Assembly (NCBI GenBank): GCA_037043015.1
Contig: CM073323.1
Location: forward strand, 29,602,758-29,666,757
DNA length: 64,000 bases
DNA from: Bryum argenteum
Taxonomy: Eukaryota > Streptophyta > Bryopsida > Bryales > Bryaceae
Direction of reading: 5' to 3'
Of the stretch, positions 15,812 through 51,832 are shown in pieces. The notes under the pieces were generated by a model. That model searched no databases and was not told the origin of the DNA. It saw only the letters and a program-made list of their open reading frames with translations. The position numbers and the translations under genes are program-made. Every line of letters starts with the position of its first letter. Within the stretch, counting starts at the first letter, position 1.

Positions 15812-15814
15812 AAT

Positions 15815-19091: not shown

Positions 19092-19095
<4 letters not shown>

Positions 19096-19134: not shown

Positions 19135-19135
<1 letters not shown>

Positions 19136-28117: not shown

Positions 28118-28444
28118 TTCCTGTCACAGTTAACCTGAGCCTTCATGAAGACTTTCTGAATTCCAAGTGACCAACTACAATTTCAGGGGCAATCCACACG
28201 GGCGGCAACGGCAACCAGCTGCGTTGTGCGATTGGCTGACGCTGTTGATGGTTTGCCACACGGTGGGCAGACCCCGAGCGGCAACTCTAACGTGGTCTGG
28301 CATAGAGTGCTTCCAAAACTTCCAGGCGCTCGACGCTGGAAGCCCGAGTTTGGCGGGCGCTATCACCAATGGCTGCCTCCCCCGCCCTTTTGAATCCCAG
28401 CCGCGGCGCGACTTCCCTCCTGCGACGTGCAGCGCGACCTCGGT

Positions 28445-28597
28445 CATGGTTGTCATATCAGACAAATTACTATTCATTTCATGTCCTACAGGACGAGTTA
28501 CTATTCATCACATGTACTTTGAAGGTACATTTGATAAATGGTAACTCGTCCTATAGGACATGAAATGAATAGTATTTTGTCTAATATGACAACCATG
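28445..28597. mobile_element. 153-bp foldback MITE with exact 8-bp target duplication
   Basis: Two ~60-bp arms are almost perfect inverted copies. The left arm starts CATGGTTGTCATAT and contains TTCATTTCATGTCCTA; the right arm ends ATATGACAACCATG. Together they can fold into one long hairpin with a ~25-base loop. ACCTCGGT flanks both sides (28437-28444, 28598-28605). The surrounding DNA is GC-rich while the insert is AT-rich, which makes the edges very clear. The few differences between arms imply a young insertion. Confidence 0.9.
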
Positions 28598-28997
28598 ACC
28601 TCGGTGCTTGCGGCTGCCTCTCCCGCCCGTGTGCCGCCCGTCTGGTAACTCGGGGGAGCAGGCAGGTGAGCTAGCTTCCAGCTCTACTCTATCCCTAGCC
28701 TTTGCAACCTCTGCCGCTGCCCCCCGTGTGGATTGCCCCGCGGTGCACTCATGTTTAGGTGCACTCATATTCAAAATCCATGATGCATTGATTAATCATG
28801 TACCGAGTTCGTTATTGGAGGGGACAATCGCTTTGTCTGATAGTGAGCACTGAAAAGGCGAGGCCACTAATTTAAGGACCTACTTAGATCAAGCAAACTT
28901 GGAAAAGTCCAGCATGTAATGCCCCGCCGGGCAAGGCAACTTGTTGCCTTGGTTTAGTGTGTATTAGTTCAATTATTATTACACTAACTAGTTGGTG

Positions 28998-29032
<35 letters not shown>
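28998..29032. repeat. Poly(A) tract, 35 bp
   Basis: An uninterrupted A run directly before dispersed repeat copy 2. Possibly the tail of an otherwise unrecognised retroposed sequence. Confidence 0.8.
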
Positions 29033-29035
<3 letters not shown>

Positions 29036-29039
29036 AGAG

Positions 29040-29283
29040 CATTTCTCGGAGCCCCCATCAGCCAATGGAATTATTTCTTCAAAATCCTTGGAATTTTCCA
29101 TTTGGACCCCCGACGACCGTTTTCAATAACTTTGAATTAAAATTTGAGGCCTGCGACCCCAAATTGCTCTTAGAGGCCTACTCCTTGGCATTTTACGCCT
29201 ATACATCAAAAAATTAGGGGCTCTCTATCCATCCCCTCCCTTGCCCCCCCAAAAATGCTCATAACACTGAAATACGGTGAACC
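29040..29283. repeat. Dispersed repeat, copy 2
   Basis: Direct-orientation partner of 9095-9410 (see that entry for shared blocks). It begins right after a 35-bp poly(A) tract. Confidence 0.6.
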
Positions 29284-29568
29284 TAGCAGAACCGTTTGGA
29301 TAGAAGGCTTCCTCTTCCAATATGAGCTCGTTTTCCTACATAACTCACATTCAAATTGTAAAAATTTAAACGTACAATCTTGTAGTTTCAACAAACAATC
29401 ATATAACATAACATTCATAATAAAAATGTCAATAAAAAAATCAATCAAAACTAAAACACATGATGCAATTCTTTATGCAAAAAGTGAAGTAATTATCTAT
29501 CTACATTAAAATCAAAGCCATGAGTTACAAAATCAAGCTAGAAACTAGAATGTATAATCACGATGGCT

Positions 29569-32933: not shown

Positions 32934-32970
32934 CGATGATTACTTAAACTAAAATGTATAATCATAAAGA

Positions 32971-33360
32971 CTACCATTTTCCTTGATATACATTTCCACC
33001 TCTCTCAAACATAGACATGATTAATTTCCTCATAGTATCAGGTTCCTCAATGCTATAGTACCAAATTTCTTATAATTTCTCCCACAAATCCTTCTTGTCA
33101 GAATTTTACTCGGACATTCTCGTACGTATGATGATCTATTTCATCCCAAAGGTTATCTATAGGATTCAAGTGACGAGATTAAAGCGGATGCTAAATTAGT
33201 AAAAACTTATCATGTGCTAACAATGATCAATCTATAACATACTTAGAAGTGTGTTTGGGATTGTCATTGCTATGAAAATAACATTTTGCTTTCCTAATCA
33301 ATGCATGTATATAGTATTCATTCCTTTGTTCAAAACGAAGGTTGTCAACTCCCTCCCAAG
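32971..33360 (-). pseudogene. Tc1/mariner transposase, C-terminal part (interrupted)
   Basis: The minus strand reads NLRFEQRNEYYIHALI, then CYFHSNDNPKHTSKYV, HLNPIDNLWDEIDHH and a closing SMFERGGNVYQGKW before a stop at 32973-32971. These match the usual Tc1/mariner order, including the central Asp block and the S-P-D-L-N-P-I-E-N-L-W-D block. In that last block the catalytic acidic residue is replaced by His, and frames are broken between blocks, so it is inactive. The N-terminal side continues at 49800-49711, beyond the 16-kb insertion. Confidence 0.85.
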
Positions 33361-33529
33361 CAGGGATGTCAATATGGACGTCTTTTGAGTTTTTTTGGTC
33401 GGACGTCCGTCCGGGGGGGTAAAATGGAATTACTACGACAACAGTAAAAATTTCAACCATTAGATCTTCTTGGAGCTCGCATCTAAGCCGTTCAAATCTG
33501 ATCTTCTTTAGAGCGACCGAGAAAATTCG

Positions 33530-33815
33530 CTCCGACCGGCGCCCGGTCGAGGCGACCGAAGGTCGTGGTGACCATGAGATTTGATTCGGAGATCCACAAC
33601 CGTCAGATCGATAACGGTCGACCGATCGGTCGGCGGTCGACCGGTCGGACGGGCGGTCGACGGATCGGTCGATCGGTCGATCGGTCGGACGGGCGGTTGT
33701 TGTTGATCGGATCGGTCGGTCGGTCGACCGGTCGGACGGCGGTTGACGGATCGGTCGGCGGTTGACCGATTGGTCGGCGGTCGACCGGTCGGACGGACCG
33801 ACCGGAATTTAAGGG
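33530..33815. repeat. GC-rich GGTCG array, left subterminal
   Basis: Irregular tandem of GGTCGACCGGTCGGACGG-like units. Similar arrays occur at 34370-34600, 41800-42055, 43870-44050, 46510-46860, 47870-47935 and 49445-49615. All of these lie inside the 16-kb element. Confidence 0.8.
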
Positions 33816-33840
33816 GGAAAAATTTTAAAAAAAAAATTTA

Positions 33841-33927
33841 AAAATCTAAATTTAGAATCCGGTCGCTCCGTCCGATCGGTCGGGCCGACCGATCGGACGG
33901 ATCGACCGGATTCTAAATTTAGATTTT
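33841..33927. repeat. Near-perfect 87-bp palindrome, left
   Basis: Begins AAAATCTAAATTTAGAATCC, passes through GGTCGCTCCGTCCGATCGGT to a centre near 33884 and mirrors back to AAATTTAGATTTT with about one mismatch per arm. It would form a very stable hairpin or cruciform. The same palindrome is found at 49314-49401, about 310 bp from the right end, while this one is about 480 bp from the left end. Confidence 0.9.
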
Positions 33928-33934
33928 ATTTTTA

Positions 33935-33967
<33 letters not shown>

Positions 33968-34258
33968 TTTCCCCGGACGGCGTGGGCGTCCGAAGCCGCC
34001 TTGGTGGGGAGCTAAGGATGGCGGCCACTCCTCTTAACCCTAACCCTATTCTAATTTATTTCAACAACCATTTTGAATTTCTTAACAACTCCCTCCCTAA
34101 AGTTTTTCAAGATCCAGATTACACTATTTGGGGTTCCCGCCCAAATAAGATTCTCCTTGCTTTGAGCATTACGATCTCACTAATGGAAAAGAATCAACGG
34201 TTTAAATTTTACAAGTGACTAAAAACTCAAGTAAACTTTAAAATCCTACGGTTGGATC

Positions 34259-34330
34259 CAGGGATGTCACAGCGTCCGGACGTCCGGACGTCCGGCAGGG
34301 GTCCGGGGACCGTCCGTGACTTAGAAAATC
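34259..34330 (+). mobile_element. Internal second hAT left end
   Basis: CAGGGATGTCACAGCGTCCG at 34259, continuing through GACGTCCGG to GTCCGTGACTTAGA, is nearly identical to the reverse complement of the true right end (49643-49710). It lies just before the transposase remnant. Either an autonomous hAT inserted into the left arm of an older, shorter element, or a right end was copied inside. The partner end and an 8-bp GTTGGATC duplication on its far side were not found. Confidence 0.65.
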
Positions 34331-34876
34331 TGGTCGTTTTACAAGGGTAAATGACCAACGGGTGCGTTCATTGGTCGAACCACCCCGTCGGCCGTCCCGA
34401 CCTCTCCGTCGCCCGACCGACCCGGTCGGTCGCTGAGCGAGAGCGGCCCGCCGTCGGCACACGGCGACCGGCCGTCGGTCGGCCGTCGGTCCCGGCGACC
34501 GCCGCGTCGGTCCGGCCGTCGGCCCGGCGACCGGCCGTCGGTCCGGCGACCGCCTCGCATCTCCGCGGCCCGCCCTCGCATCTGCGACCGCTTAACGGCG
34601 GATGGCCCTTTTGAGCATCCAACGGTTTCAATTTCAAATTGCAACGGTCATATTCGGAGTTGGATGGTATATAAGAGAAGACACATTGAGTCTCATTTCA
34701 CTTCCGAATTTTGAACACTTTCCAAGAGCTATGAGCCACATAATTCATTTTATGTGTACATTGCTTGGTAGGTATTGAGTTTGGAAGTGAGGATTTCGTA
34801 AGGAACTCTTGCCAATTTTTTTTTCCCGTCACGGTCCCACCATTACTTAAGACTTTGAGGCGTCCTATTTATCAAA

Positions 34877-37607
34877 ATGGGCCCTGCTCCACATGAGCCT
34901 TGGTTTAGAGACATCGAGAAGGAAGGCAAAGCGTCTGGCTCCTTCCTACAGTGCTCACTATGTCGTGTAATTGTTTCAAGAAGAAGAGTCGGAATTTGAG
35001 TCATTATGGGTACGAGAAGATTCCCGGACATAGGGATTCGAGTTCGCCCTTTCGAAGTCGCCTAGGGAAATTAGGCGAGTTATTTTTAAGATGTCGTGGG
35101 AGTTCCCTCCATATAACGGAGAATTGGAACTATTTCTCGGTGAATGTTCTCTCACTCCATCCACGGACGTTCAGTGCTTCAAAACATGACATTCCCGAAA
35201 CCCCTAGGAGTGACTCTTGTGTAGGGTCCTCGCTAGGCACCCCCATGAATTCAACAAAATTTTTGGTAGGGTCAACCTCGCTTCTTCCATGCATATGAGG
35301 GGAATAAGGGATACTCGCCCGATGTTTGGATCTATGAAGCAAACGAAGCAATCTTCAATTGAAGCTACTTTTGCGAAGCGGATAGGCGGGAGTTGGATAA
35401 ACTCGGGCGAAATTTTTTTTACGAAGCAAATATACCATTTCTCAGATAGCCGCAATGATGCGTTCAAAGTCTGCGCCGATGATGAAGGCTGCGGGATTTC
35501 GAAAATCCTATGCTCCACCATCCTACCATGACATTCGGACAAGGTTGTTAGGAGAAGTAAAGACGGAGTTACAAAAGAAACTAGATAGTAGACTCTCCGA
35601 GAGCCTTCGGAAGTTTGGAGGAACTTTGACTATGGATGGATGGTCATCTCGTGACTAGTCGCCCTTTGGTAAATGCGATGCTCGTGACTCAAGGCGGAGA
35701 GCTTTTTCTTGGTCTTTGTCGATACATCGCCAAGAAAAAAAACGGTGTGTACATGTCAACTCTCATGTTGAAGTACATAGAAGAAGTTGGACCGAGAGAA
35801 CATTGTTCAAGTATGCATGAGACAATGCTTCAGTAATGCTCAATGCCTCAAGAATAGTCCTTGAGAAATATCCGCACATTTTCATGCAAGGGTGTGCGAC
35901 ACATGCAATGGACTTGTTGTTGGAGGATTGGGGAAAAGGCTGGATGGATGGCGAATACTTTGGTCATGGCGAAGAAAATGGTCAAGTTTATCAAGAGGCG
36001 ACAAATGCCCCTAGTAGTGTGTTTCGTAAACACGAGGCGAAATCGACCTCCCGATGCCCGGGAAAACAAGATTTGCTAGTCAATTCATAATGATAGATCG
36101 CTTGTTGGAGGTCAAGGAATCATTGGAGCAAGTTGTTGTCGACCCTATGTTCTGACCTATGCCTCGAAGAAGACGGTATCTCGCTAGAGATAAGCTTATA
36201 TTCTCACGTAAGGTCAAGAAGGTGGTGTTGAGCGATGAGTTTTGGAAGCAATGCAAAAGACTACGGGATATGGTTGCCCCGTGGTGTACGCTCCGAGAGA
36301 ATTCGACGGCAAGGCTCCTAGTACGGGCAAGGCATGGCATATTATGCGTGATCTTGAGAGACATGTCCATACTTTGCACGCACCGCCCATCTCATTGGAA
36401 CCACTTGAGGTGGCCACCGCAAAAGAGGAGTTTTACCATCGGAAACGGCTCATGACAACGGATTTACATGTGTGGGCCGCACTTTTAAATCCTTATTTAC
36501 TACACGACCAAGAGTTAGGCGACGATCCCGATCTTACAATCGCTTGCAAGCGTGTTTTACAAAAATTATGTCCCGCGGAGGATTACGCAGGCGTAGTGAG
36601 TGAATTTCTTGCGTTTTGAGTAAGGGGTCCACCATTCCATGACATGTTGGAGCCTAATACTCAAAAACTAGCTCCACATGCATGGTGGGAGTTTGAAGGT
36701 GCTTGTGCTAAGCTCCTCTCTCCAATTGCAAAGCGAATACTAGCACGAGCACCGTGTCCTCGTCTACCATGAACGCAACTGGAGTAGCTACTCTTATGTT
36801 CACGACAAGAAACGGAATCGGTTACTACCGGGCAGAGCTGATGACTTGGTCTACATATATTCCAACTCGAAATTGCTCGCGAATGATAAGTTGAGTGATG
36901 ATGGGCGGTGGTATAGAGAGAACTTGGATTTAGAGGAAGACCAAGTACATGAGAATGATGAGGAAGCTGTCGAGGACGAATCAGAGTCTGATGACAATGA
37001 TGTTTTTGAATTTGGCAATGAAGATGATGATATGACTTTCTTCCCCGCTTCAAATGATGAAAATGCTCCAAATGTTCATGATGGTAATGGTGATTTTATC
37101 GCTCATGGTCTTTCAGCGGATGATCTAGATGATGAGCAGCCGTTAGCCCGGTTAATGACACAAGGCGGCATGGACAAATCAAATAACGTCCTACCTGTTA
37201 TCGCTACTGGTTTACGGTTGGAAAAGGAGGCGATAGATGCGAAGACCATTGCGTGCAACACAATTGCGGGCACTATGAGCTCTGATCCGGTCGCGGAGAA
37301 TATTGCATCCGGTAGTAAGGATCAAGTATCTGATCAATATGCTACTCCCCGCGCTTTATTTCAACCCTCTACTACAAGGGTTACGACAACCTTGGAGAAA
37401 TCGTCTAAGGGTTTAGTATCCCTTTCAAGAGCCAAATATGGGAGCATCTCTAGTGACTACGATGTACCGTTGGGCGTATTTAAAGAATGCCAATGTTCTT
37501 CAGATCGCCACGGGATTACAAAGACATGCTTGGCTCTTCCAAGTCGCATAAACGGAAATCGCAATGTGATTCCAATTGTTCCGCCTAAAAAACGAAGATC
37601 CTGTTAA
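34877..37607 (+). pseudogene. hAT-family transposase, multiple frameshifts
   Basis: Pieces in changing frames keep the order of a plant hAT transposase of the DUF659 type. They are: a start MGPAPHEPWFRDIEKEG with a C-x2-C zinc-finger-like LQCSLC (34877-34980); a DUF659-like LRKFGGTLTMDGWSS (35600-35650); RPLVNAMLVTQGGELFLG (35660); QGCATHAMDLLLEDWGK (35890-35940); FWKQCKRLRDMV and AWHIMRDLERHVH (36240-36370); and EEFYHRKRLMTTDLHVWAAL...YLLHD (36425-36510). Toward the end (36780-36860) a C-terminal dimerisation-like segment is split by a frameshift before VYIYSNSKLLANDKLSDD, then comes an acidic tail to the stop at 37607. At least five frame breaks or stops separate these blocks, so it cannot make a full transposase. 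hAT transposases cut and paste DNA with 8-bp duplications, which agrees with the element's flanks. Confidence 0.8.
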
Positions 37608-38114
37608 TCTCCCGAATTTGATACTTGGCATAAGTATGGGAATATACAATGTCCAGGAGAATAAACCCAAGATCAAAGAGGAGGTTCCAAGCGATTATGA
37701 ATATGATCCTACGGGATCCAGTGGAGTGAAGTGAAGGGAGATAGCGATTATGAGCAATCCTCCGGTCCCGATGAGTAGTTGAATTTGGCATCTTTATGTA
37801 GTATAGGTTCATAGGACTTATACTTATTATAGAAATTGTAGTTATAGTTTATTGTAGTACTTTATTGTTATACTCCAAATGCATTTGGAGATTCTATTGT
37901 CTACATGATCGCATTTAATGTTTTGAAAAATATTACATACATTTTTACATACTTGTAAATACGATAGTCTTCACTCTCAATTGTCTCAAGCATACAAAAG
38001 AAATGCACATTAAATCAAAAAGATTGTAACCCTTTACTTCAAAAATAAGGCCCCATGGATCAATGGTGGCATTTGCATCATTTTTAAAACAACAACCATA
38101 CAATCTAAAAAAAA

Positions 38115-38115
38115 A

Positions 38116-38192
<77 letters not shown>

Positions 38193-38274
38193 TATATGTG
38201 GAACTTAAGGTCCAACATCCGTTCTAACTTCAAATCAAGATCCATCCGATTGGCCAACTGAGCTACACATGACC
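38115..38274 (-). repeat. Possible tRNA-derived SINE fragment with (TA)n tail
   Basis: Read on the minus strand from 38274: GGTCATGTGTAGCTCAGTTGG holds a good RNA polymerase III A box (TAGCTCAGTTGG). About 37 bases later, GATGTTGGACC resembles a B box with one or two changes. The sequence then runs into the AT microsatellite, as some SINE tails do. There is no cloverleaf good enough to call a tRNA gene. Confidence 0.35.
38118..38188. repeat. (AT)n microsatellite, about 71 bp
   Basis: An almost pure AT dinucleotide run between the hAT transposase and the RING gene, close to where the two converging genes end. Confidence 0.95.
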
Positions 38275-41200
38275 TACATCACTGCGAGTACGCGGTCTTT
38301 GACTTGGACGGGCAATTCGACCGCCCTCTTCATACTCTCGATCCATCCACCGCGATTTCGCCTCTCATACCGCTTGCCAACTATCCTCCCCATCGTCGCC
38401 CGATTGCCTCTTCCGCTTTTTGCTCGGATCCACTTGTTTGTTACGTAAGATTTCCATGGCCTTCTCAATCTTTGCAATGACATCCCGTACAACACCTTCA
38501 AACTCATCCAATAATAGAAGTTGTGTGTCTTTTGGGTTTAAAAGACATTCTCTCCAAAATGTAATGGCGTCATCGATACGCGTATCAAACTTCTTCACCG
38601 CATCCCAATAAGAGACCTCCACATCTTCAAAAGAATTTTCCGGTATCGAAACCGAATATTGCGGCCTCCTCCAATTTCGCGAGTACGTGAGCTCTTCCAA
38701 TTGGAGTATGATCGTACTTCTTGTACTCTTCACCAAAGCCTTGTTGAATCGGTTATTTCGTGCCACGAACCATCTTCTCCTTTTCCACTTTCTTTGGAGG
38801 AAATCGAAAGAAACGGTTGTGTTCGATGCTCAATGCCCCCGAAATTACGACAAAACAACTCTCGTTGCTCATCACCTTCAATATTCCTCGCCCTGATCTC
38901 TATTTCGTAATCTCGTGTCATCCAAAATAACTGATCATGATCCCCACCAAATTGAATGGCTAGTTGGTGTTTTGATTCGGATGTACTCCAGGTAAGAGCA
39001 TTTCCCAATCGAGTAGTTTAGAAATTTCTTGGGTATTGATCCAATGGAAGATTCCATCGGTTGAACTCGTCTTGCTGGTGGTATAAGATCTTGAATGCCC
39101 ATCATCTCGTAGAATCTCGTGCTAAATGGGGAGCGACATCTTTGGACATAACGATTTAGTCATCGCATATCGGCATATGCAAGTAACATGAAAGTTATGG
39201 CCACATTGGCCTAACGTGTATGCGCCCTCCGGACCAAAATTATGTAGGCACACCGCACATTTGTCTTTAAGTATTGCGGGAGGAGGGTCGCATGTGTTGA
39301 TTACAATGCGTGACTCTTGTAGGTGCGATGAGAATCTACTATACGGCGCCCATCCTTCCTCTATCTCCATAGTCCAATCAACATCATTGTTTCGTCCCAT
39401 CTTAGAGTAGTTTGTACGCTCCATCATCTCTTCAATATCCCCCAAAAAGTGACCTCTATGGGGTCATATCGCTTTTTCGATCCGTTCTTAACGAACTTCT
39501 CCAATGAAGCATCTACAACTTCACGTGATTCCTTTGATGTAGATGCAATCGATTTCAGATCTTCTTTTGCTCTCGAAACCAAGCTCCTCTTATCTTGAAG
39601 TCGATGAACCCATCCCAACCATGGTAGTATGCGTAGGTGAAGGTGGATTGTCGCCTCGTAGAATCTACCGTTTTGAAGGTTTTCCGTAATGCCTCCAATT
39701 CGCCGATCGCCTCATCTCTCTCTTTACTTGTAGCCTCCAACTTCATTGAGCATGCTTTTGCTTCCTCCTCCAATTTCGCAATCGTAACATCTCTCTCCTT
39801 CTTGATCTTTGCGAACTCCATCGCCCACGCTCGTTGTCGCTCAATCTGTGCATCATCTATCTCCTTTTGTGATATTAACTTCAATTCCCCCCGAATTTCA
39901 TCATCGTCATCATCGTCTATTTCGATAATGGTTTTTCCCTTATCTTCTTTACCATCCTCTTCACTAACCTCTTTGAGAGGAGATAAATCCCACGATATAC
40001 GTCTTTTCGTCTCTTCTTCACCATCCTCTTTACCACCCCCATCAATTTGTGAAAGAAAAAGACTATCAGAAGTCCCGATAATGGTCTTCCCCTTATCTTT
40101 ATTACCATCCTTTTCACCATCCTCTTTACCATCGTCTTTACCACCCGCATCACATTCTGGAACAACATGACTACATGAAGCCCCCTGAGTGTCATTCTCT
40201 GATGGAACATAGGCGAATTGGTCATCCGCCCATGCTTCTACCGCATCCTTTTGGCGGATTGCTTCTTGGTACTTCGCCTCATACTTGCTAGCAGGACCTT
40301 GGCCAAACAACCGCAATTCCCTGTAGAACTCGTCTAGGAGACGTTGCGTAATTTCTTTGTTGTTTCTCCTGTTTCACAATGATTAGCTCGAGTCTTCACT
40401 CGGTCCTTCAGTAGAGGTTGAAACCGATCTACGAGTACCTCAAAATTGTTGGCAGCTAGTAGAATGTTGGGCATGACACCTGCAAAAGTATGAGCCAGCC
40501 CCACAAATCTTGGAGCCATATCCGCAAGTATTTTTGACCCCATCTTCAAGTTGTACCCTAGATTAGTTATCTGTTCACCCGTAGTCTCGTGCCAATGATT
40601 CCCTTCCAAACCTTCCTCTTTATCTACCTCATTGCACCAATCTGCCAAACTTTTTGTTTTTTTCATCCACTCATCCAATGTGTTATCCGGTACTTCATAA
40701 GTCATATACCTCTCGAACATTGGCGCCGCACCGAATCGAGATCCATGTCATCCATGGGAGAAGTTGGTGTGCCGGTTTCCGTGGTTCACTTGGCCCCCGC
40801 CTCCTCGGTGTTGGTACGGGTTTCACGAGGTTCTTCAACTACGTTTGCACCTTCGAGCCTATCGCTTATAGTTGGTTCTACGATTGGGGCATCCGTAGCA
40901 ACCATATTCCTTCCATCCCTCGATGTGTCCAGGTTGTTGGAGGAGATTCCTTCTCCGCCGTATCATGAGTTTTCCTCCTCAATCATCGCAATAAGGCCTT
41001 TGTAGAATTTGATTCGGATCAAACCTATCGGGATATCCTTTTGATTTCTCCCGATTCGAAGAGGATATGCACTACTCGCCGTGAATGTGCTCCAGTTCAC
41101 CTTGCGCTTCAATATGAGCTCAAAGATACACCATGCTCAAGAGCGTATATGAAAAATAACCCTTGCTCTTGGGACGAGTTCCAAACAATGCCACCCAAAC

Positions 41201-41650
41201 TTCTTCAGCACGATGAAGGAAGTGATCATCCTTGCATGTTTGAGGGTTGCAAGTAAAATTATTGGTATTAACTTTGTGACATTCTCGAGGCCAAAGTTTC
41301 CCAATGTGATACATCTTCACATATTTCTTGCACGTCGCCATTCTCCAGTATTCCTCCGGTTCATTGGCCCAACCGCTCTCAGCTTTGATGGCCTCATTAT
41401 CCAAGATATCGTAGTGCAACTCATGTCTCGCTCCTTTTGGTTTCACTCTCTTTGACGGTGTCTCATGTAAAACCAACTCAGTCCCCACCAATCCTGCGTT
41501 TGTGGTTTCTGTCGCAGGTGACCTCAAGGTTTGTTCCAGTACCAGCCTCCATGTTCGTGTTATCAATATCCGTCGCCATGAAGAGTAGGGAGTATTTAAA
41601 ATACCCCCAAAATATCCCAAGTATGCAAAAATTCGATGCAGCAGCCGCAA
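38270..41650 (-). pseudogene. Coiled-coil and RING-H2 accessory gene of the hAT element, disrupted or spliced
   Basis: Converges on the transposase from the opposite strand. In order: a segment with KKYVKMYHIGKLWPREC (41340-41290) and an HFLHRAEEVWVALF block; EWMKKTKSLADWCNEVD (40670) to KDRVKTRANHCETGE; after a frame change, an acidic Lys/Asp-rich then strongly helical stretch with KIKKERDVTIAKLEEEAKA (40320-39555), which is probably a coiled coil; and a RING-H2 finger at 39290-39130. The finger reads CAVCLHNF, CGHNFHVTC and, after a one-base shift, CPRC, giving C-x2-C, C-x-H-x2-H-x2-C and C-x2-C. RING-H2 domains usually act as ubiquitin E3 ligases. A helical tail, FDTRIDDAITFWRECLL (38550), ends with the basic KKRKRQ. 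Some breaks could be introns; the single-base shift inside the RING cannot. I do not know an established name for this gene. Confidence 0.6.
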
Positions 41651-41799
41651 GTATCACGCTGACTTCCCCCCGCCACCACAAATGCAGCACACGAGAAGCT
41701 AATGCCCACGGTTGCAGCTCAGTTGAGATGGATGAATACAAGGAGAAGTGAGGGGAAATGAGGCCCCAAAGGCCTCTTATCCCCCCTCCCTCCCAACCC

Positions 41800-42055
41800 T
41801 AGAGACCGGCCGCCCGGACGGTCGCTCGCCAATCACGGCCGCGGCCGATGTTGGCGGCGGTCCGGCCCGCCGATCGATCGTGGCGGTCGTTGGCCGCCGG
41901 CCGGTCGTTGCCGACCGGGGGCTGCCGACCAGTCGCTGCCGACCGATGTGGCCGGCCGATCGTGGCCGCTCGATGCCGGCCGCTCGATGCCGGCCGACCG
42001 ATGCCGGCCGACCAATGCCGGTCGACCAACGCGGCCGACCGATGTGGGCGGCCGC
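41800..42055. repeat. GC-rich GGCCGACCGATG array
   Basis: Tandem units such as GCCGGCCGACCGATGCCGGC, followed by a T-rich stretch. Apparent proteins on both strands are rich in Arg, Pro, Ala and Gly and are artefacts of the repeat. Confidence 0.75.
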
Positions 42056-42169
42056 TGCGGTTTTTTTTAAAATTTTTTTTTCAATTTTTTTTAATATAAA
42101 AATTAGGAAATTTTATTTATATATATATATATATTTATTTATTTATTTATTTAAAATTCAGAGATCTTA

Positions 42170-42680
42170 CATAGCATAGGATCCTTTTTTATTTCGCAAA
42201 GTTTTTTGTTATTTGATTCTCAGTGATTATTACACACTGAAATAAGGAATCCTATGTTGATTTCTGAAATGCAATATATTATTTCTCTCGGATACATCTT
42301 AACCCTTAAAAATCCACAATGTTTCGGGAGCTTGAAATCCCAACACTGACCACTATGTACTATTTGGGGTACGTCCAATATTTTTGGAAATTATTGATAA
42401 TTTCATCCGTAGGATCTTGAAGTAGACTACCATTGATAGTACCGTGATTATTTTTAACCGTTGGATCATCACTAGATGTGAGATCATAACGTTTAAAGTT
42501 GACTGGAATTTTTTTTTTCCTTCACTGTAAACGCCGAATCGGTGGCCGTGGTCGTTTAGGGGTTAACTCTAAATTTTAAGTTCATAACCATTTTCAGTGG
42601 ACTCTTTAAAGTGTAAATCTTCACAAATTAATAGATGTTTCAAACATAAGGCATTCATTTGGTTTCGAATCAATATCTTT
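42170..42680. repeat. Internal repeat R4, copy 1 (interrupted by the TTAA element)
   Basis: 42170-42298 and 42567-42680 together match 44135-44360 directly. Matched blocks include GCATAGGATCCTTTTTTAT, GGAATCCTATGTTGATTTC, CGGATACAT and AAATTTTAAGTTCATAACCA. Copy 1 carries the 268-bp insertion described separately; copy 2 does not. Confidence 0.85.
42299..42566. mobile_element. 268-bp TTAA-targeting element with paralogous empty site
   Basis: TTAA-CCCTTAAAAATCC on the left and GTCGTTTAGGGG-TTAA on the right. The sister repeat at 44260 reads GATACATTTGAACTTTAAAT where this copy reads GATACATC-TTAA...TTAA-CTCTAAAT. The sister thus has a single TGAA (one base from TTAA) and no insert. That is direct evidence of insertion with a 4-bp TTAA duplication, as for piggyBac. 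The internal sequence (AACCGTTGGATCATCACTA, GTGAGATCAT) recurs diverged at 45800-46000. Confidence 0.75.
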
Positions 42681-43379
42681 CTTCTTTATTTTCCTTTTGT
42701 AATTTAATTGACCATTGGCTTCATGAATCAAACTTTTAACCACATGACCTACAACAGTAACTCTATTCCAATATTGCATGGTTGAGAATGTCAATTGGAG
42801 TATCCTAATCTTAATGTAGGACACTTATTTTGGAACTCATCCTAAAGAGTTATTCATACATCCTAAACCATAAACCACAAATCCTATCCACGAGTGATTT
42901 TATCCACTAGATACTCTAAATGAAGAAGAGATGCCTATTTAAAATTTTATATTTTCAAAACAATCAATCGAAGAAAGAGTTATATGACTTATATCGGGAA
43001 TTACTAGAAATTGTGAAGATTATTTTTGTAATCTTTCAACAGTACCCTTGTGAAATAGACAAACATTTTGACTTGGGTCACTTTGGAACTGAAGTAGTAA
43101 ATTGTTCATGAACATATTTCCAAAAAAGAATTTCAAACAAAGACTAAATTTAACTGCCCTTAATGGACTTCAAACGTAAAAATTATAGATGTACGTTGTA
43201 AATTTGGAATTTGGATATGCAAATTTTACCACATGCACTTTGCGGTGTAAGGACCACCTAGTCAAAATTTAATAAAAAATTATTACTTTTGACCTCTTCA
43301 TATAAGCTGCCCGAAATAGGAAACCTCCACTTTGGTGTCCATGGATCTTTAGGGGTTAAGAAGGAATATTTTAACAATA

Positions 43380-43990
43380 ATAAATTAAGGTGTACAATCA
43401 AAAGCATGGTCTTTAACTAATAATAAGAATTGACCCCTTTGCCTTTGCTTTCCTTAAAAACAAGGGCATGAACTCTCAATGCCTTCACAAATGAGAAAAT
43501 TGACCACACTATATTGATTGTTAAATGTTTACTTCGATTCGAGCCAATTGGGCACAACAACTCAAAAAGTGAGTGTATTGGCGTGAAGATTTGCTCGCCT
43601 TAACTCCCCTTCAAGAAAGTCCATTACTATGGATATATTTAAAGCCAAGAGTATCTTTGTCATAAAACATTCTCGCGTGGGACAAAAAGATATTCCCGAC
43701 ATTCTCTTGTCAGAAAATTCCCTGTCCATATTTAGACGCCACGTGGAGCATAAAGACTAAATATAGTAGTTTTGAAAATGCAGGTATGCAAGGCGAGGAA
43801 GTGATCGAAGTTGTGCAAACGGGGAGTTTGGGGAGAGGCAAGAGGAGGAGGGGGAAGGGGGGACACGGAAGGACCCACCGACCGGTCGCCCGGGGGACGT
43901 GGTCGGTCCCCACGCCGGTCGGCGGTCGTCGCCGATCGCCGGTCGCCGGGCCGGTCGTCGCGGGACGCGGGCCGTCGCGGACGCGGGCCG
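43380..43990. repeat. Internal repeat R1, direct copy of 46050-46640
   Basis: Shared blocks in order: TTTAACTAATAATAAGAATTG, CTCAAAAAGTG-GTG, TCTTTGTCATAAAACATTC, ATTCCCGACATTC, TTAGACGCCACGTGGA, TTTTGAAAATGCAGG-ATGC, AAGGCGAGGAAGTG and then the CGACCGGTCGCC array. The part from the ATTCCCGACATTC block outward is also present inverted at about 48000-48240. Confidence 0.85.
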
Positions 43991-44134
43991 GTCGCCGGGA
44001 GTCGTCGCTGACGACGCGGGCGGTCGTCGCACGCCCGCCCGATGGCGGCCAACTGAAATGGGGCCAAAGTACAGTTTTTTTTTTTTTTTTTTTTTTAAAT
44101 TCCTTAAATACATAACTAAAAAAAGATAAAATTG

Positions 44135-44360
44135 CATAGGATCCTTTTTTTATTTCTCAAAGATTTCTGTTACTCGATTTTCAGTAATTACTACACAATG
44201 AAAAAGGAATCCTATGTTGATTTCCGAAATGCTAAGTATTCTTTTTTCACGGATACATTTGAACTTTAAATTTTAAGTTCATAACCATTTCGAGTGAGCT
44301 CCATAAAAGTATAGATCTTCACGAATTCAAAAATGTTTCGTACAAACACTACTTCAGTAC
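44135..44360. repeat. Internal repeat R4, copy 2 (empty site)
   Basis: Direct match to 42170-42298 plus 42567-42680, without the TTAA element. The empty site lies near 44260. Confidence 0.85.
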
Positions 44361-44773
44361 TCATACGTTATGATCTATGAGGCTGTATGAATTAAACTCT
44401 AAGCCACATGACCTACAATAGTAACTCTATTCCAATTTTGGTTTAAAATAGGCTATGAGATTGAAGACTCTGGAATCATAATTCGTATGTTGATGTTTAA
44501 TATAGTACCTATATATTCTTTGCAATAAATTTGTGATTTATTCCATGTCAATAACATCTTCAATCAAAATGATAAATACAAAATAGATTATTTTGCACAC
44601 ATTAACTATGCGATGTAGAGAAGTGCAACTTGTATCCATGTAAAATATAATTGAGAACTACACCATACATACAATAATCCATTATTTTACATCCACACAC
44701 AATTGTGTTTTGCAAAGCTTTGCAACACAAAAACTAGGATTAAAATGAAATGTACCCCAAATCCTCAAGACCG

Positions 44774-44825
44774 TAAACCCTAAACCCTAAACCCTAAACC
44801 CTATACCCTAAACCCTATACCCTAG
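44774..44825. repeat. Interstitial telomere-like tract (CCCTAAA)n
   Basis: Four perfect AAACCCT units followed by degenerate ATACCCT units. This is the plant-type telomere repeat on the minus strand (TTTAGGG). It sits deep inside the 16-kb element with ordinary sequence on both sides, so it is interstitial and not a chromosome end. Confidence 0.85.
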
Positions 44826-46049
44826 AGGCCTACATAGTAATTCATACATCTTTAACCAAGAACTTAAAGTTTATCCTCAAGAGAATGTATCCATTACATA
44901 CAAGAAATGAAGAAGTGATGGCTCTTCAAAATATTCTATTCCTAAATCAATCAATCATAGTATACGAATAATCAATTTGATATAACATCTAATCCTAGTA
45001 CTAATGTACTATACTTGTACAATATCAAATATGCTTAAAAATTTAGGAGTTGATGCCATTATTGCCATATGTTAAACACTTAGAGGGTGGGATATTTTTT
45101 AAAATTTATTGGTCTCCCTATTTCTTTCTCTTATTTTATGATTGCAAAAATAGTAACAATGAAAACTTATTTCAATTACCTTGGTAAGAGGGAAATAAGT
45201 AACTATTCAAATCCATACAATAAGAATAATGCTACAATTAATCATATGTACTAGATTATATATATTCTCCTAGGTTAGTTGAAGGTTGTCAAACAAAAAA
45301 TAGCGAATAATAGAATTAGTTGTTTATGCACCATATTTTTTATAATAAGTATTACTAATTAGAATACACAACGACGGAATAATTTCCAAATACCCATCAA
45401 TTAATATAGACCATACATTGTGGAAATGTTAAGGCCCAAATAGAAAGTCTAAATATTGACAAACTCAAGAAGACCAAAGTTATGAAAAGTAAATGCTCAC
45501 ACATGATCACCTACATTTCATATATACTTGATCTCTCCAATGTGAGACATCAATATATTCTCACCAAGGACTAGGTAAATTTTTGGAATGTAATTAGAGG
45601 GGATTTAGGGCCACCTCGTGGTACACAAGACAGGGCAAGTCATGAATGGGGGCCAAGAAATGACAAAATCTCCTAGTGAGAATGGATAAATTTTTCTATT
45701 TCCTATCCGTGAAAAATAGTAACCCACTCCTTTCTCACACCAAGTATATAGATTCCCTCAATTTTCCTTAAGTGTACGAGAATAGGTGGTTTCACTACAA
45801 AGGGGCTATGTCCAATATTTTTGGATATACTTTATAATTTCAACCATAGGATCTTGAGTAAACTACCATATGTAGTAGTGTGAAATCTTCAACCGTTGGA
45901 TCATCACTACATGCGAGATCATTACATTTGAAATTGAATATGAAACATTTTTTGGCCGTGACGATAAAAGACGAAATGGTGGCCATGATTGTGAAGGTGT
46001 TAGGAAGAATAATTCCGTAAAAACAAAAATAAAAAATAAATGTGTACCA

Positions 46050-46860
46050 AAAAAAAACATGGACTTTAGTTAATAATAAGAATTGGCCCCATGGCCTTGG
46101 CTACCCTTCTAGACATGGGCTTCAACTCCAAAGGACTTCATGACTCGGAAAATTGGCCACACTAAATTGGTTGTTCAATTAAAGCTAATTGTTCAATTAA
46201 AACTAATTGGACAACATAACTCAAAAAGTGCGTGAATTGGCTTGGAGATTTGTTGGCCTTCCCTCCTCTTGCAAAGAGTCCCTTATTATAGGTTTATTTA
46301 AAGCCGATAGTATCTTTGTCATAAAACATTCCCGTTTATGACTAAAAGACATTCCCGACATTCCCTTATCAGAACATTCCCTGTCCTTATTTAGACGCCA
46401 CGTGGACCAAAGAGGCTAAATATGGAACTTTTGAAAATGCAGGCATGCAAGGCGAGGAAGTGTTCGAAATTGTGCAAACAAGGAGTTTTTGGGTGAGGGA
46501 AGAGGAGGAGGGGGAAGGGGAGACGTGGAAGGATCGACCGACCGGTCGCCCGGGGGTCGGGGTCGGTCGCCGGCCCGGTCTTCGGTCGCCGGTCTCCAGC
46601 CCGGTCGCCGGTCGCCGGCCCGGTCGGGTGGCCGGATGCCGGTCGCCAGGACGGTCGGCCGGCCGATCCGCCGCCGGTCGGCCGGGATCGGGCGCCCCCG
46701 TCGCCGTCGGCCGCGCCATCGACGCCCCGATCGACCGATCGGAAGTGCGACCCGATCGGTCGTCACGGCGCCGTCGCCGGCCGGATCGCTGATTGTTGCC
46801 TGCCGCCCGGGATCGGACGGCCAAGGCTACCGGCCAATGGCGTCCGATCCGGTCGGCATA
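46050..46860. repeat. Internal repeat R2 with GC-rich GGTCGCC array
   Basis: Direct copy of 43380-43990 (see R1), followed by an array of CCGGTCGCCGGTCGCC-type units to 46860. Its outer part (46261-46400) is inverted at about 48060-48240, with ATTCCCGACATTCCC against GGGGAATGTCGGGAA and AAAACATTCCC against GGGAATGTTTT. Long inverted ends thus enclose the gene remnant at 46985-47880. Confidence 0.8.
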
Positions 46861-46984
46861 AATAGAAGGGGAGGGGCTCATTGTCCCTCACTGCGAGTGA
46901 AGCAAGTATGCGTTGCGGCTTTTTTTAAAGCCGCATCGATTGCGATTACTCGAGTCCGCGTGGGTCACCCACGCCTCACCGTGC

Positions 46985-47880
46985 ATACTTGTCGCCGCTG
47001 GAAATGGCGCCAAAGTTTTCACGTTCGGGGGCGAGGCCAAGTCTCCACGACCAAAGGGCGACCCTCCAAAAATGGATTGGGAAGCATGGAGTGACCCAAA
47101 TCGTGTTGCGAGCCGGGTTGGCGAGAGGAGAGGGCGGACATTTGGAATTGCACCATGTGCAAGAAGTACGTGAAGATGTACCACATCATGAAGTTATGGC
47201 GCGGCGCGACGAAGAGAAATATGGTCCTCGTCGTGAAGGCCCGGTGAAGAGTTGCAAGAGCGACCATTTTGCGCACGAGATATCACGAAGTCACAATTGC
47301 GAGTTGGAATCAAGAACACAAGGCCGTAATTGATGTTGTATTCTACCATGGCCATGGTGTGGTGAAATAGTCCCGCACAAGGACATTGATCTGGACCAAC
47401 GTGATAGGTTTGAACGTGCATTTATTGGATCGCAAAGAACCGATTCATTCCCACAAATTGGATGGGACCAAGCGATTGTTATACTACGATTCGTAACGTT
47501 GGTGATATGGATGCCCAACTTCAACAACATGGAACTCCAAGGGCATATGGGGGCACTCAAAGAAGACTCAAACCATGACGATCGTCAAGCACCGAGATCC
47601 TTTGGCGCGGGAAGTGAGGGGTATTACCATGGAAACCACCAATTCGGTACTCCGGTGAGTTATATGCCACCTCATCAGCAAAACACGTACGGAGCCGAAC
47701 GCGAGTACGGTAGAGGTGGATCTAGTTCAAACTACCCATCTCCAATGTATACAGGAGGTACACATGGTTTAGGAGGTGAGCAGGGTAGCGGATCCAATGC
47801 TCAATGCAACTCAAGCCCAACTCATCCTATAAACCCATACAATCGTGGGAACCAATACGGTACAACATTCGTGTACCGAC
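46985..47880 (+). pseudogene. Remnant of a zinc-finger-like, Gly/Tyr-rich protein inside nested inverted repeats
   Basis: Frames around 47125-47200 read WNCTMCKKYVKMYHIMKLW, a close match to the CKKYVKMYHIGKLW block of the minus-strand accessory gene, so both descend from one sequence; the C-x2-C looks like part of a BED-type finger. After many frame breaks, a last frame (47499-47870) encodes a Gly/Tyr/Ser/Pro/Gln-rich low-complexity tail (YYHGNHQFGTPVSYMPPHQQ). It then runs into the GACCGACCG array and becomes an artefactual RPDRPDRP repeat. Not a functional gene. Function unknown. Confidence 0.5.
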
Positions 47881-48398
47881 CGGACCGACCGGACCGACCG
47901 ACCGGACCGACCGAGCGACCGAGCGACCGGTCGGTGTCTTGCGCTCCTCTCTTCCTCTCCCACTCACCAACACTCCCTCATCTCTCCACTTCTCCCTTCT
48001 TCTTCCTCCTCTTGCTTGCATTTAAGAATTGTCTATTTTTAGGTACCTGACATTGTACCTACAATCTAAATCAGGGCATTAATCCACATGCCGATTTTGT
48101 CAGGGGAATGTCGGGAAGATCTTCTTTTCATAGAAGGGAATGTTTTACTCAAAAGATCTTATGGGCTTGGACACACATGAAAAATAGAACTTATTATAAA
48201 TAACCCCTCATTGTTCATATGAATCTTAACTATCCATGAATCACTTGGAATTCTTTAGGGGTACAATGTCATGCTTTGATAGAATTTGCAATATATTCAC
48301 ATTGACTTATGATAATGAAAAATATTATAGTTACTAACCATTTACGGATCTAAGTATCTAAGCAAATTTTATTTGAATCCAAATGGGTGGTTGTTTAT

Positions 48399-48420
48399 TT
48401 AACCCCTAAAGGCTAGGGGG
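48399..48420. mobile_element. Isolated TTAA-CCCC end
   Basis: TTAACCCCTAAAGGC at 48399 faces right. A left-facing counterpart, CTTTAGGGGTTAA, ends at 43359. Both match the TTAA-CCCTTAAA family, but a partner within a few hundred bases was not identified for either. Confidence 0.35.
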
Positions 48421-49313
48421 GGGGGGTTGAAGGAAAAATAAATGTGTTAAGAAATGTGAGTTTTCTAACTCTTGTAAACTTTCTTCCCAAAGACAATATA
48501 AAAACCTTAATTCTAAGATTAATTTGTTGTAGTTGAAATCCTCATAACAATTAATAATTCTCTTGTAATAGATTAAAGACACCTAAACTCTCAATAGCAA
48601 AATAAAATTCTCATTTCTATTCTTAGTACTTATTTATTTGTATGGTTTTCTTAAGTTTTATCTTACATGATAAAGGCCAATACTTATCTATGAAGATACT
48701 ATTAGTCTCCTTTTATAATAAGTTATTCAATATTAAGCAAACCTTGTCATGTTTGTGATTAAAGGGGTTGGTGTGAAAAATACATGATGCCAAACTAGGT
48801 AGTACATACCATAAGTAGTATGAAGTAGGTAATATCTTCCGGACCATGATAATAAGATTAAATGAATCATCAATCAATTCACAAAATTAACTTAAGTATG
48901 GTTAAATTTTAGATAAAATAAAGAGATCTTAATCCCTAGATATCCTTGATGCGAAATTGCCGAAATTCTTCATGCTTGTAAAGCCTCATTTGAAGCAATG
49001 TTTAGAAAGATCCAACTTACCGTAGGATCTTAAAGTTAACTTGAATTTTTAGTGACTTGTAAAATTTAAACCGTCGATTCTTTTCCATTAGTGAGATCGT
49101 AATGCTCAAAGCAAGGAGAATCTTATTTGAGCGGGAACCCCAAATAGTGTAATCTGGGTCTTGAAAAACTTTAGGGGGGTGGGGGGAGTTTCAAGAAATT
49201 CAAAATGGTTGTTGAAATAAATTGGAATAGGGTTAGGGTTAAGAGGAGTGGCCGCCATCCTTAGCTCCCCACCAGCGGCCGGACGCCCACGCCGTCCGGG
49301 AAGAAAAAAAAAA

Positions 49314-49401
49314 AAAATCTAAATTTAGAATCCGGTCGCTCCGTCCGATCGGTCGGCCCGACCGACCGGACGGAGCGACTGGATTCTAAATTTAGATTTT
49401 T
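49314..49401. repeat. Near-perfect 88-bp palindrome, right
   Basis: Same sequence as the palindrome at 33841-33927: an AAATCTAAATTTAGAATCC outer arm, GGTCGCTCCGTCCG and a mirrored second half. It lies next to a run of A on one side and T on the other. Its symmetric placement near both ends suggests a role in end recognition, but that is inference. Confidence 0.9.
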
Positions 49402-49710
49402 TTAAAATTTTTTAATTTATTATTATTATTATTTTTTTTTTTTTTTTTCTCGGTCGGGCGACCACCGACCGATCGACGGATGGCTTGCTCTACCGGTCGC
49501 CCGGTTTGGGCGGTCGGCGGGCGGGCTTGCCGGGCCAAAGACCGGTCGCCCCGCCCAAAGACCGGTCGCCCGGGCCGATGACCGGTCGCCCGGGCCGAAG
49601 ATCGGTCGCCCCTTTTACCTTAGGTAAATAGTCCAAAATCTCTAAGTCACGGACGCTCCCATAACCCCCTGCGGACGTCCACCGGACGTCCGGACGCTGT
49701 GACATCCCTG

Positions 49711-49800
49711 CTCCCAAGTCATCCACGATGCATCCCCAAATCATAATACTTTTACCACCACATTTAGTAGTAGGGTGCACATGCGGATCTTAAAGATACT
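49711..49800 (-). pseudogene. Tc1/mariner transposase, upstream part (interrupted)
   Basis: The minus strand reads HPTTKCGGKSIMIWGCIVDD and then LG at the insertion point. It matches the G-G-S-x-M-x-W-G-C block of Tc1/mariner and continues in sense at 33360 with NLRFEQ. The break falls exactly at the CTCCCAAG target duplication. Nothing further upstream (above 49800) was recognised. Confidence 0.8.
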
Positions 49801-51832
49801 CTCTTCTCCTCCTGTAGCGATTCTGCCTCCCATCATAGCTAGATAAATTGACTGATCTGACAAAACCACACAATTCCATTTCATCTAACTTCCATGGCTA
49901 CAGTACTTCTTTGCTTATGCATATTGACGTGCTTTGTGTTGTTTTGACAATATGTGCGTGATGAATTGGGCACACATGATTACACATCATGAACTGCTAT
50001 CCTTGCAAGGAGTGTTGTCTTGTGCGACAATATCGAACGCCACATGTGCAAACACAACAATCAGACAAACATTCCCTCTGAGAGGAGGCAAAGGATATCA
50101 AAGAGGCAAATGTTTTTCTTTTTACTATGCATTTCTTAATATGATCGGACATTCTAGTCAAACTCGACCCTAGACGAGCATGTCGAACACAACAATTTAG
50201 TCAGATATTACGAAAAGTGTGTCATGTAAAAAACTTGCTTGCAAGCGACTCAATGTCAATTCTGGTACGCTTTCTAGTCTAGAAGTGGCTCGTTCTTTAT
50301 AATTAGGTGAAATATCCGCACCTACCCATTGAAGTTGACAAGTGCTACTACTAAATCAAGATTGTCATTCCTGTCCAAGGCTCCAAGCAGTTCTGCTGAC
50401 CACGGTATTACTATATGTGCAATTCTCCAGTTGGTACTGATGATGAGTCAAAACGTATCATTCAGGGTCGGACTATTTATACCTGTAGGTAGTAAGAGTG
50501 CAGTTCTCGACACGATCAGGACATTATTTCATGTGAGAACGACCCTGGGACCAGTTGTATTCACACTTAGAGCATGATTGACCAGAACACTGCGACGAGT
50601 ATGCCTGTCCAGCAGTCGACACTATAAGTCATATTTCAATGCAGATGGAGTTCTGAAGCTCGTTGTGGTTGGATGGTACCACAATTTGCATCGCATGTTG
50701 CAAGTGGTCGGGATCAGAACGGCAGGCAGCTGATGATTGTTGCAAGACTGGCAGCGCTTTTCAGACAGACATTCAACTGTGGTGCAGAGAGAATTTAAAG
50801 TGCACGTGATTAGAGCAATCATCTGAGTGGTGAATGTTTAAACAATTTCATCACTCGCTGCAGCCTCAGCTCAAAGGGTACCTTGTTTCTGAGCTGACGA
50901 GGAGCCAGATTCCTTGAGTGACTCGTGATTTGAGGTTCTGTACGTGGGGCCGACGAACGTGACCCTCCCTGCCTTTGATGCATTATTGACTCTCAGCCCT
51001 TGAGTCCTGTCGGTGCAGGATCGGACGTCCAGCAAGCTTCAATCACCACAAATGAATTAATATTCCAGAAAGTGCATGATTGTGTTCAAATGTCAGGGGA
51101 TACGCTACTCCTGTCTTTTCCACCTCTAATGATTCTTCTACCTTAGAATATTACAGCATATTGCCACTTGCATATTTTACTCAGTACAAAGTGCTTCCGC
51201 CACTTCCACGCGCGGGCAAACACCATCCTGTCAGCGTATCGTATCCTGACGACGATGTAAGCCACCACCCAGACATTACGGACGTTACTCACGAACGGTG
51301 ACCATTTCAGCCTTTCTCTTCTTTAATTAAATAATGATCTTGAGACCCTCCTGAATGTGCAGTGGAGTCAACCTTTGCCTACGTACATCGTCTACCATTC
51401 AGAGCAAGCTGCAATCATGTTATACACCTGTTTCTGGCACTCGATCAGCTATAATTCATCCTTGTAGTAGTTGTGTATTCACCTCTGTCTGTAGTTGTGC
51501 ATGGCCTTGAATATTCTACTGTACTTGCCTCATCACCAACAATCGTAAAGACAACCTCAATCATTTCTACACCAGCAAGTTCATTCATAGACATTCAGGC
51601 AGCCGGGCTTTGAAAGATGCATGAATTAGAACTCGTAGTGTCCAATTCTTATTTTAAGTCCCTAACACATACTATACAACTCGGGACGAGACTGTATACT
51701 TCTTGGTTTGTCGACGAGGTCGTGTTGTTGAAAAACTCAAGGAGGATAAATACAACTCAGTTCTTCAGGTACGATATTTTGAACTCAAAATCCAGCGTTT
51801 CAGGATTGAAACTTGAAACGTCAGTGACATAT
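49801..51832. other. Intergenic DNA with no supported gene
   Basis: More GC-balanced than the surrounding elements, but all frames are under about 85 residues with no known motif. I cannot rule out a non-coding RNA. Confidence 0.4.

Follow-up and report, generated by a model that had tools for sequence, protein, structure and literature searches.

The 64-kb window of Bryum argenteum DNA analysed here (the whole stretch, to which all positions refer) contains an interval of 16,350 bp, nt 33361–49710, that is bracketed by an exact 8-bp duplication and had initially been annotated as one 16.35-kb hAT transposon caught inside a Tc1/mariner gene. Does the interval represent a single, very large element, or several elements that share one pair of outer ends? 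It is very probably a nest: a Ds-like element (X) lying in an old Tc1-like repeat, broken by a giant second element (Y) and then partly deleted. The features are collected in Table 1.

Table 1. Features of the nested locus, in window positions
Feature	Position	Strand	Basis or remark
Decayed Tc1-like repeat, left of insertion	32936–33352	-	alignment of flank relatives
Target-site duplication of X, left copy, CTCCCAAG	33353–33360		exact; empty site
X, left part, terminus CAGGGATGTCA at 33361–33371	33361–34258	+	stops where Y starts; dispersed copies
X subterminal inverted repeat, left arm	33828–34252	+	pairs with 49019–49442
GTTGGATC, 8 bp of X adjoining left end of Y	34251–34258		read by eye
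Y, 13,613 bp of a hAT family of about 17 kb; CAGGGATGTCAC preserved at the left terminus, right end lost	34259–47871	+	dispersed copies
Decayed hAT transposase gene of Y	34859–37775	+	mapped pieces of relatives; domains in relatives
DUF659 domain remnant	35407–35946	+	above Pfam cut-off with stops read as the letter X
RING-finger gene of Y, convergent with transposase	38233–41494	-	Pfam; pieces of relatives; DUF659 pairing
RING-H2 domain (zf-RING_2)	39143–39265	-	Pfam
Third Y reading frame, truncated at 47871	47095–47871	+	remaining end present in another copy (L069:1-370)
X, right part, terminus TGACATCCCTG at 49700–49710	47872–49710	+	dispersed copies
X subterminal inverted repeat, right arm	49019–49442	-	pairs with 33828–34252
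Target-site duplication of X, right copy, CTCCCAAG	49711–49718		exact
Decayed Tc1-like repeat, right of insertion	49719–49950	-	alignment of flank relatives

Outer ends and the interrupted repeat

The duplication lies directly outside both outer termini, and all of these sequences are exact. Two fixed places would agree over 8 bp by chance with a probability of about 1.5e-5 (4^-8). The empty site was also recovered: of 14 relatives of the flanking repeat that were examined, three dispersed ones (L060, L066 and L068) align unbroken across 33360|49719 with 71–72% identity, and the remaining 11 match further out only, stopping short of this point. Both the 8-bp duplication reported by the initial annotation and the existence of uninterrupted relatives of the flank are thus confirmed. 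The interrupted Tc1/mariner gene described there survives in part. DNA relatives do run across the empty site, but the joined protein pieces fall in different frames and a Pfam search of the three minus-strand frames, 2 kb on each side of the insertion, gave zero matches, so that the 'gene' is a decayed remnant, presumably Tc1-like to judge from short motifs. Insertion of X into a decayed Tc1-like repeat is right or plausible.

Pairing of X ends on the same strand at distances of up to 25 kb, with 40 left-end and 40 right-end matches scored, gave 25 pairs, one of them in the window (best-scored candidates only; family counts are samples). Among these scored pairs 21 of the 25 are 2,697–5,948 bp long, the others measuring 649, 806 and 10,850 bp and, in the window, 16,350 bp. 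In all six further copies for which both flanks were available, the 8-bp flanks are identical, and the window and these six share the marks of a hAT element, an 8-bp duplication with short CAGGG-type termini, in agreement with the hAT-type outer ends originally proposed. Pfam searches of both X parts of the window in six frames returned zero matches. The most fitting reading of X is a Ds-like hAT element whose portion at this locus lacks a recognisable transposase.

Two related elements within one duplication

Exact occurrences of CAGGGATGTCA in the window number three, at both outer ends and at 34259; the last of these had been overlooked. Position 34259 is also where Y begins. Of the best 40 of 1245 candidates scored for the left boundary, 34 of the 39 other copies start at query 346–379, 30 of them at query 357–364 (window 34256–34263), and in all 39 the overrun into the X arm is at most 14 bp. 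On the right, where the best 23 of 4454 candidates were scored, 21 of the 22 other copies end at window 47869 or 47871, and one match that was read onward continues past 47871 in different sequence. Two Y copies have both ends exact, one of 17,126 bp with flanks CTTTTGAG and CTTCTGAG (7/8 matching, one mismatch) and one of 18,015 bp with CTTTTGAA on both sides (8/8). Fifteen of 23 pairs place the left end of Y 14,953–15,285 bp from the end of the L069 sequence; from there to the right terminus of Y the distance is 1,672–1,930 bp in three pairs, the right end having been read at one locus (L038) and placed elsewhere by coordinates. Long copies are numerous in the family and vary little in length. 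Y is therefore a separate, truncated hAT element of a family of about 17 kb.

The two elements are related. Their ends correspond in swapped order, X-left matching Y-right in 104 of 149 columns (score 85 against a shuffled maximum of 22) and X-right matching Y-left in 81 of 99 (101 against 25), so that X has termini and subterminal sequence in common with Y. Because of this swapped match the transposase of Y probably serves X.

These boundaries bear directly on the alternatives. Exact as the outer ends and target duplication are, a single 16.35-kb family is scarcely credible: other copies of nt 33361–49710 have boundaries different from those first annotated, Y copies occur without the outer arm, and an inner terminus lies at 34259. 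The single-element candidate is refuted in this assembly by the family boundaries at 34259 and 47871 and by the inner junctions, 34258|34259 and 47871|47872, which are in no other copy and occur once each in the 259-Mb assembly with up to three mismatches allowed. The remark that the hAT element is unusually large accordingly fails for the interval, which is composite (X being mostly 2.7–5.9 kb), and holds for the inner Y family, itself about 17 kb. A false assembly join could in turn have united X and Y, since both families are abundant and 47871|47872 sits at an ACCG-rich repeat, but this is very unlikely given that the window is free of Ns, the two copies of the outer duplication agree at a distance of 16 kb, the Y terminus falls exactly on the left inner boundary and both inner junctions are single.

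Macrotransposition, in which a composite built elsewhere jumped whole, all 16.35 kb of it, into the Tc1-like repeat on the intact ends of X, is a stronger contender, albeit an unlikely one. The ends of hAT elements can move the sequence between them, another pair of X ends lies 10,850 bp apart, and here a perfect duplication and intact outer ends bracket a 16-kb unit. Against it, dispersed Y copies account for Y at this locus without such a step, and each inner junction is single in the assembly, though one cut-and-paste move would also leave one.

The nested insertion that we favour would have proceeded in three steps. The Ds-like X inserted into the old Tc1-like repeat and left the CTCCCAAG duplication that can be read directly at the locus. 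Y, an Ac-like element of about 17 kb that carries both a transposase of its own and a RING gene, would then have entered the left arm of X at 34258|34259. The left boundary of this insertion is observed; arrival by ordinary transposition is presumed because the second copy of the target is gone, none of GTTGGATC having been seen by eye beside the truncated end of Y. Finally, a deletion, presumably a single one, would have removed the last 3.1–3.4 kb of Y, the rest of the left arm of X and part of its interior, joining 47871 to 47872; the truncation itself is evident. The transposase of Y probably acts on X. Y would work as a cut-and-paste hAT transposon, and a helper role for its RING protein is speculative. 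In maize double Ds and nested Ds one family member likewise lies within another, the inner member here being a giant of the autonomous type, and truncated. An exact target duplication can thus enclose a nest of two elements, and the size claimed for the window is corrected.

Gene content of the inner element

The Y family shows the 8-bp duplication in two full-length copies (8/8 in one, 7/8 in the other) and, in relatives, the DUF659 and C-terminal dimerisation domains of hAT transposases. Pfam finds DUF659 in the relative L040 (E 1.3e-36) and in the window remnant (E 8.9e-12, 45.4 bits, cut-off 34.7). When the whole plus-strand frames of Y were searched with stops replaced by the letter X, DUF659 appeared in one frame and nothing in the other two. 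Dimer_Tnp_hAT was detected at L041:1634-3181 (E 3.5e-12, 46.4 bits, cut-off 21.4) and fell below this cut-off in an L040 piece (20.2 bits); Pfam did not find it in the decayed window copy. A Pfam search of L040:8004-8396 for a BED-type zinc finger was without a match, and Rfam at gathering scores gave zero matches in the window. In ten of the Y reading frames of the window, RING-type domains alone exceed the Pfam cut-off.

The RING-finger gene lies about 2.9 kb beyond DUF659, in convergent orientation. Among the matches listed, 29 such convergent pairs were found against 0.6 expected, two of them with just 59–62% RING identity. A listed DUF659 place lies within 6 kb of 30 of the 150 RING places listed, namely two of 11 with identity of 62% or less and 28 of the 139 others (one of these not convergent), the pairing being incomplete in both lists. 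In up to 15 Y copies, the window copy included, dN/dS was 0.46 for the C-terminal part of the transposase, 0.60 for the DUF659 part, 0.53 for the RING part and 0.48 for the C-terminal part of the RING gene, figures that are inflated by frameshifted pieces, with stops in several copies, and lend weak support at most. The value of 0.94 for the N-terminal part of the RING gene speaks against uniform constraint, and a protein search with this part gave zero matches among 618 candidates.

We tentatively suggest, as a real possibility, that in this giant (about 17 kb) hAT lineage of the genome the transposase is stably accompanied by a second, convergent gene for a RING-finger protein, even between families whose RING identity has fallen to about 60%. 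It would then be a two-gene hAT system with an E3-ligase-like helper that supports or regulates transposition. More speculatively, the RING protein probably tunes transposase activity or host silencing. If it does act on either, this would offer a testable case of an accessory gene carried by a hAT transposon, and a natural setting in which to study how cut-and-paste elements bear large size. The interest of Y, a hAT element of about 17 kb whose RING gene stays beside the transposase in a diverged family as well, exceeds that of the composite itself.

Relation to known transposons

Like other hAT transposases with DUF659, that of the Y family combines this domain with the hAT C-terminal dimerisation domain. 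Ac measures 4.6 kb and has a single transcript, whereas Y, at about 17 kb, carries at least one further reading frame besides the transposase and the RING gene. The available text of PMC3260210 describes Ac as having 11-bp termini, with C/TAGGGATGAAA as terminus, and 8-bp target duplications, and Ac/Ds as an autonomous element with heterogeneous smaller partners that keep its termini (Ds2-like). To that extent X and Y resemble maize Ac/Ds, showing 8-bp duplications, 11-bp termini and an autonomous-type element with smaller partners. The terminus of the Ac/Ds family proper is absent here, where CAGGGATGTCA stands in place of C/TAGGGATGAAA (PMC3260210), sequence having been compared at the terminus alone.

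According to the available text of PMC10741241, hAT elements are typically shorter than 5 kb, CACTA elements usually exceed 10 kb and some MULEs have extra ORFs. Y departs from this typical hAT length and is like these CACTA and multi-ORF MULE elements in being a large plant DNA transposon; they belong to other superfamilies, with other target duplication lengths and transposases. The literature searched by title and abstract yielded no report of a hAT element with a RING gene, or of the Y family, and the word hAT is absent from the available text of a paper on giant transposons (PMC6431247).

The DUF659 hAT type and an ACCCTAA array suggest a plant host, whereas the conserved genes seen, encoding an IST1-like protein, a methionine sulfoxide reductase and a WD40 protein, do not point to any one lineage.

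Structure of the insertion

The interval 33361–49710 begins with CAGGGATGTCA and ends with TGACATCCCTG, and CTCCCAAG lies directly outside both ends, all exact in the window sequence (C3:29602758–29666757 of an assembly of 259 Mb in 25 contigs). The 8-bp duplication described in the initial annotation is therefore real, matching exactly at the 33361/49710 borders. Three of 14 examined loci related to the flanking repeat span the joined flanks (33360|49719) in one piece, which marks the interval as inserted DNA with a single 8-bp target. That the element interrupts a Tc1/mariner gene at both junctions holds in part: relatives cross the empty site, but the remnant is decayed, as the two protein pieces fall in different frames once joined and the minus-strand frames of the repeat have no Pfam match.

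While the observation of an insertion stands, its interpretation is supported only in part. The reading as a single 16.35-kb hAT transposon fails, because other copies of the inner sequence have their boundaries at 34259 and 47871, and the junctions with the outer sequence at these points occur only in the window. The unit is a nest of two elements, an outer (X) and an inner (Y), the latter sitting in X in inverted orientation. A third CAGGGATGTCA is present at 34259, and the right terminus (49710 inward) matches 34259–34325 at 87%; a longer inverted repeat pairs 33828–34252 with 49019–49442. In a genome search with 33900–36200, 34 of 39 other scored copies start at query 346–379, and 30 of these at 357–364 (query 360 is window 34259). 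The remaining five start further in, four of them having a second piece that starts at 359–361, and none of the 39 reaches further than 14 bp into the upstream arm. Similarly, 21 of 22 other scored copies in a search with 41700–48200 stop at query 6170 or 6172 (window 47869 or 47871); one copy with this end, when followed onward, continues with a reading frame and further sequence absent from the window. Patterns across 34258|34259 and 47871|47872, allowing up to 3 mismatches, have no second site in the assembly. Most probably X entered the site first and Y then inserted into X, after which a deletion, presumably a single one, joined 47871 to 47872. At a different point, another X arm (L038:2518; C2:15021894) harbours the right end of a Y-type insertion, and a RING match lies 12 kb from it at C2:15033763; repeated nesting of Y in X is therefore probable.

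Features of the nest, its relatives and the surrounding window
Feature	Location	Strand	Details
X, outer element	33361–34258 + 47872–49710
X copies with identical flanks	L002/L034, L003/L027, L004/L013, L006/L020, L007/L012, L008/L033 (fetched loci)
Y, inner element	34259–47871		longer elsewhere
Y transposase gene	34859–37775	+	from mapping of relatives' pieces
Y RING-H2 gene	38233–41494	-	E 6e-08 in window, 1.6e-09 in relative
Y third frame	from 47095, cut at 47871	+
Full-length Y copy	C1:24966788–24983913		17,126 bp; both ends exact; flanks CTTTTGAG/CTTCTGAG
Full-length Y copy	C7:11301384–11319398		18,015 bp; both ends exact; flanks CTTTTGAA/CTTTTGAA
WD40 protein (host gene)	2667–3404
IST1-like protein (host gene)	10182–12218
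Peptide methionine sulfoxide reductase (host gene)	16599–17471

The Y family and its genes

The right terminus of Y was recognised in locus L038, where a CAGGGATGTCAAT end lies within another X arm. Full-length copies were obtained by a genome search with this end, its coordinates being combined with those of other Y searches. From the left terminus of Y to the end of the stretch matched by locus L069, the distance is 14,953–15,285 bp in 15 of 23 pairs (15,486–31,179 in the others), and from there to the right terminus it is 1,672, 1,852 and 1,930 bp in three copies. Given these near-constant spans and the full-length copies, the large length is a property of the Y family and not an accident of nesting. 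The 36100–41800 part is complete or nearly so, at 90–95% identity, in 19 other copies (28 candidates scored, window included), with partial copies as well, and the L069 part occurs in at least 39 others (96–98% identity).

In pieces from relatives, matches to DUF659 (E 1.3e-36) and to the hAT dimerisation domain (E 3.5e-12) are present; in the window a DUF659 remnant survives (E 8.9e-12; whole frame E 1.5e-09). Domains and duplications show Y to be a hAT member, the transposase of which would cut at the termini and reinsert with an 8-bp duplication. More speculatively, the RING protein might serve as an E3-ligase-like helper whose target is the transposase or silencing. The RING part has 24 matches among 78 public candidate proteins (best 73% identity); one of them, P0097, and the DUF659 match P0071 are both assigned to one contig with a length of 15,439 bases, a hint, though no proof, that they lie together. 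The third frame (47107–47199) has a short cysteine-bearing stretch in common with the RING gene's first part (41494–40985; 58% over 31 residues).

According to PMC10741241, hAT elements are typically <5 kb with 8-bp duplications, whereas the Y family measures about 17 kb. The word hAT is absent from the accessible part of a giant-transposon review (PMC6431247), and a literature search, with most subscription journals outside its reach, listed no record describing a hAT that bears a RING gene. What makes the nest interesting is the 17-kb hAT family, equipped with a RING gene, that is represented in the window by a broken copy.

Y also contains a 0.6-kb direct duplication (43373–43957 / 46025–46626, 80% identical) surrounded by shorter repeats, and an interstitial array of 7.9 copies of ACCCTAA (44770–44824), which we take to be the plant-type telomere unit. 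GGTCG/CGACC-rich tandem repeats, possibly regulatory or binding arrays, are found near the ends of and inside X and Y (33615–33796, 34448–34554, 41892–42044, 46564–46665).

Pairing of DUF659 and RING

The best 150 of 620 DUF659 candidates were compared with 150 RING places listed of 857 candidates. Among these matches there are at least 29 convergent pairs within 6 kb, spaced 2,120–3,661 bp (25 of the 29 at 2,684–3,087 bp), and one further pair with a different orientation. With places scattered uniformly at random, 500 trials (some contig sizes estimated) yielded 0.61 pairs on average and never more than 4. In two pairs, on C5 and C11, RING identity falls to just 62 and 59%, at spacings of 2,861 and 2,854 bp, so that the arrangement extends to a diverged family, although both might come from a single family and hence not be independent. 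The other pairs are probably mostly Y copies or near relatives. Among the matches listed, 2 of 11 RING places at ≤62% identity are paired versus 28 of 139 others, a similar rate, which the scope of those lists can explain but not prove. Long open frames surround RING (stop-free for up to 1,204 residues), and dN/dS among Y copies gives mild support at best. Contig C1 spans 44.1 Mb, or 17% of the 259-Mb assembly, and holds 96 of the 150 DUF659 places scored and 91 of the 150 RING places listed; it is a chromosome rich in transposons and may be a sex chromosome.

Relationship of X to Y

The best 40 left-end and 40 right-end matches gave 25 same-strand X end pairs ≤25 kb apart, window included. 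Among the matches scored, 21 pairs are 2,697–5,948 bp long, the other four being 649, 806 and 10,850 bp and the 16,350 bp of the window; the two shortest are possibly mispaired. Fifteen X left ends are without a partner among the right-end matches listed, as is locus L005 among the matches listed. All six other X copies with both ends fetched have identical 8-bp flanks. The X parts in the window have no Pfam match in six frames, and none of the 150 DUF659 places listed (best 150 of 620 candidates; on C1, those nearest its three X copies) falls inside any of the 25 X intervals.

X-left aligns with Y-right over 104 of 149 columns (score 85; shuffled maximum 22) and X-right with Y-left over 81 of 99 (score 101; shuffled maximum 25). 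The remaining four end comparisons score 23–33 versus shuffled maxima of 24–26, two of them, both with Y-right, being slightly above. From these swapped-end matches we infer that X may be a Ds-like partner, movable by the transposase of Y. As described in PMC3260210, Ac has a length of 4.6 kb, and its ends are retained by Ds2 partners, many of which contain filler.

Outside the nest, a 159-bp palindrome (28442–28600, 91%) has CATGGTTGTCA close to both ends and is possibly a foldback element or MITE.
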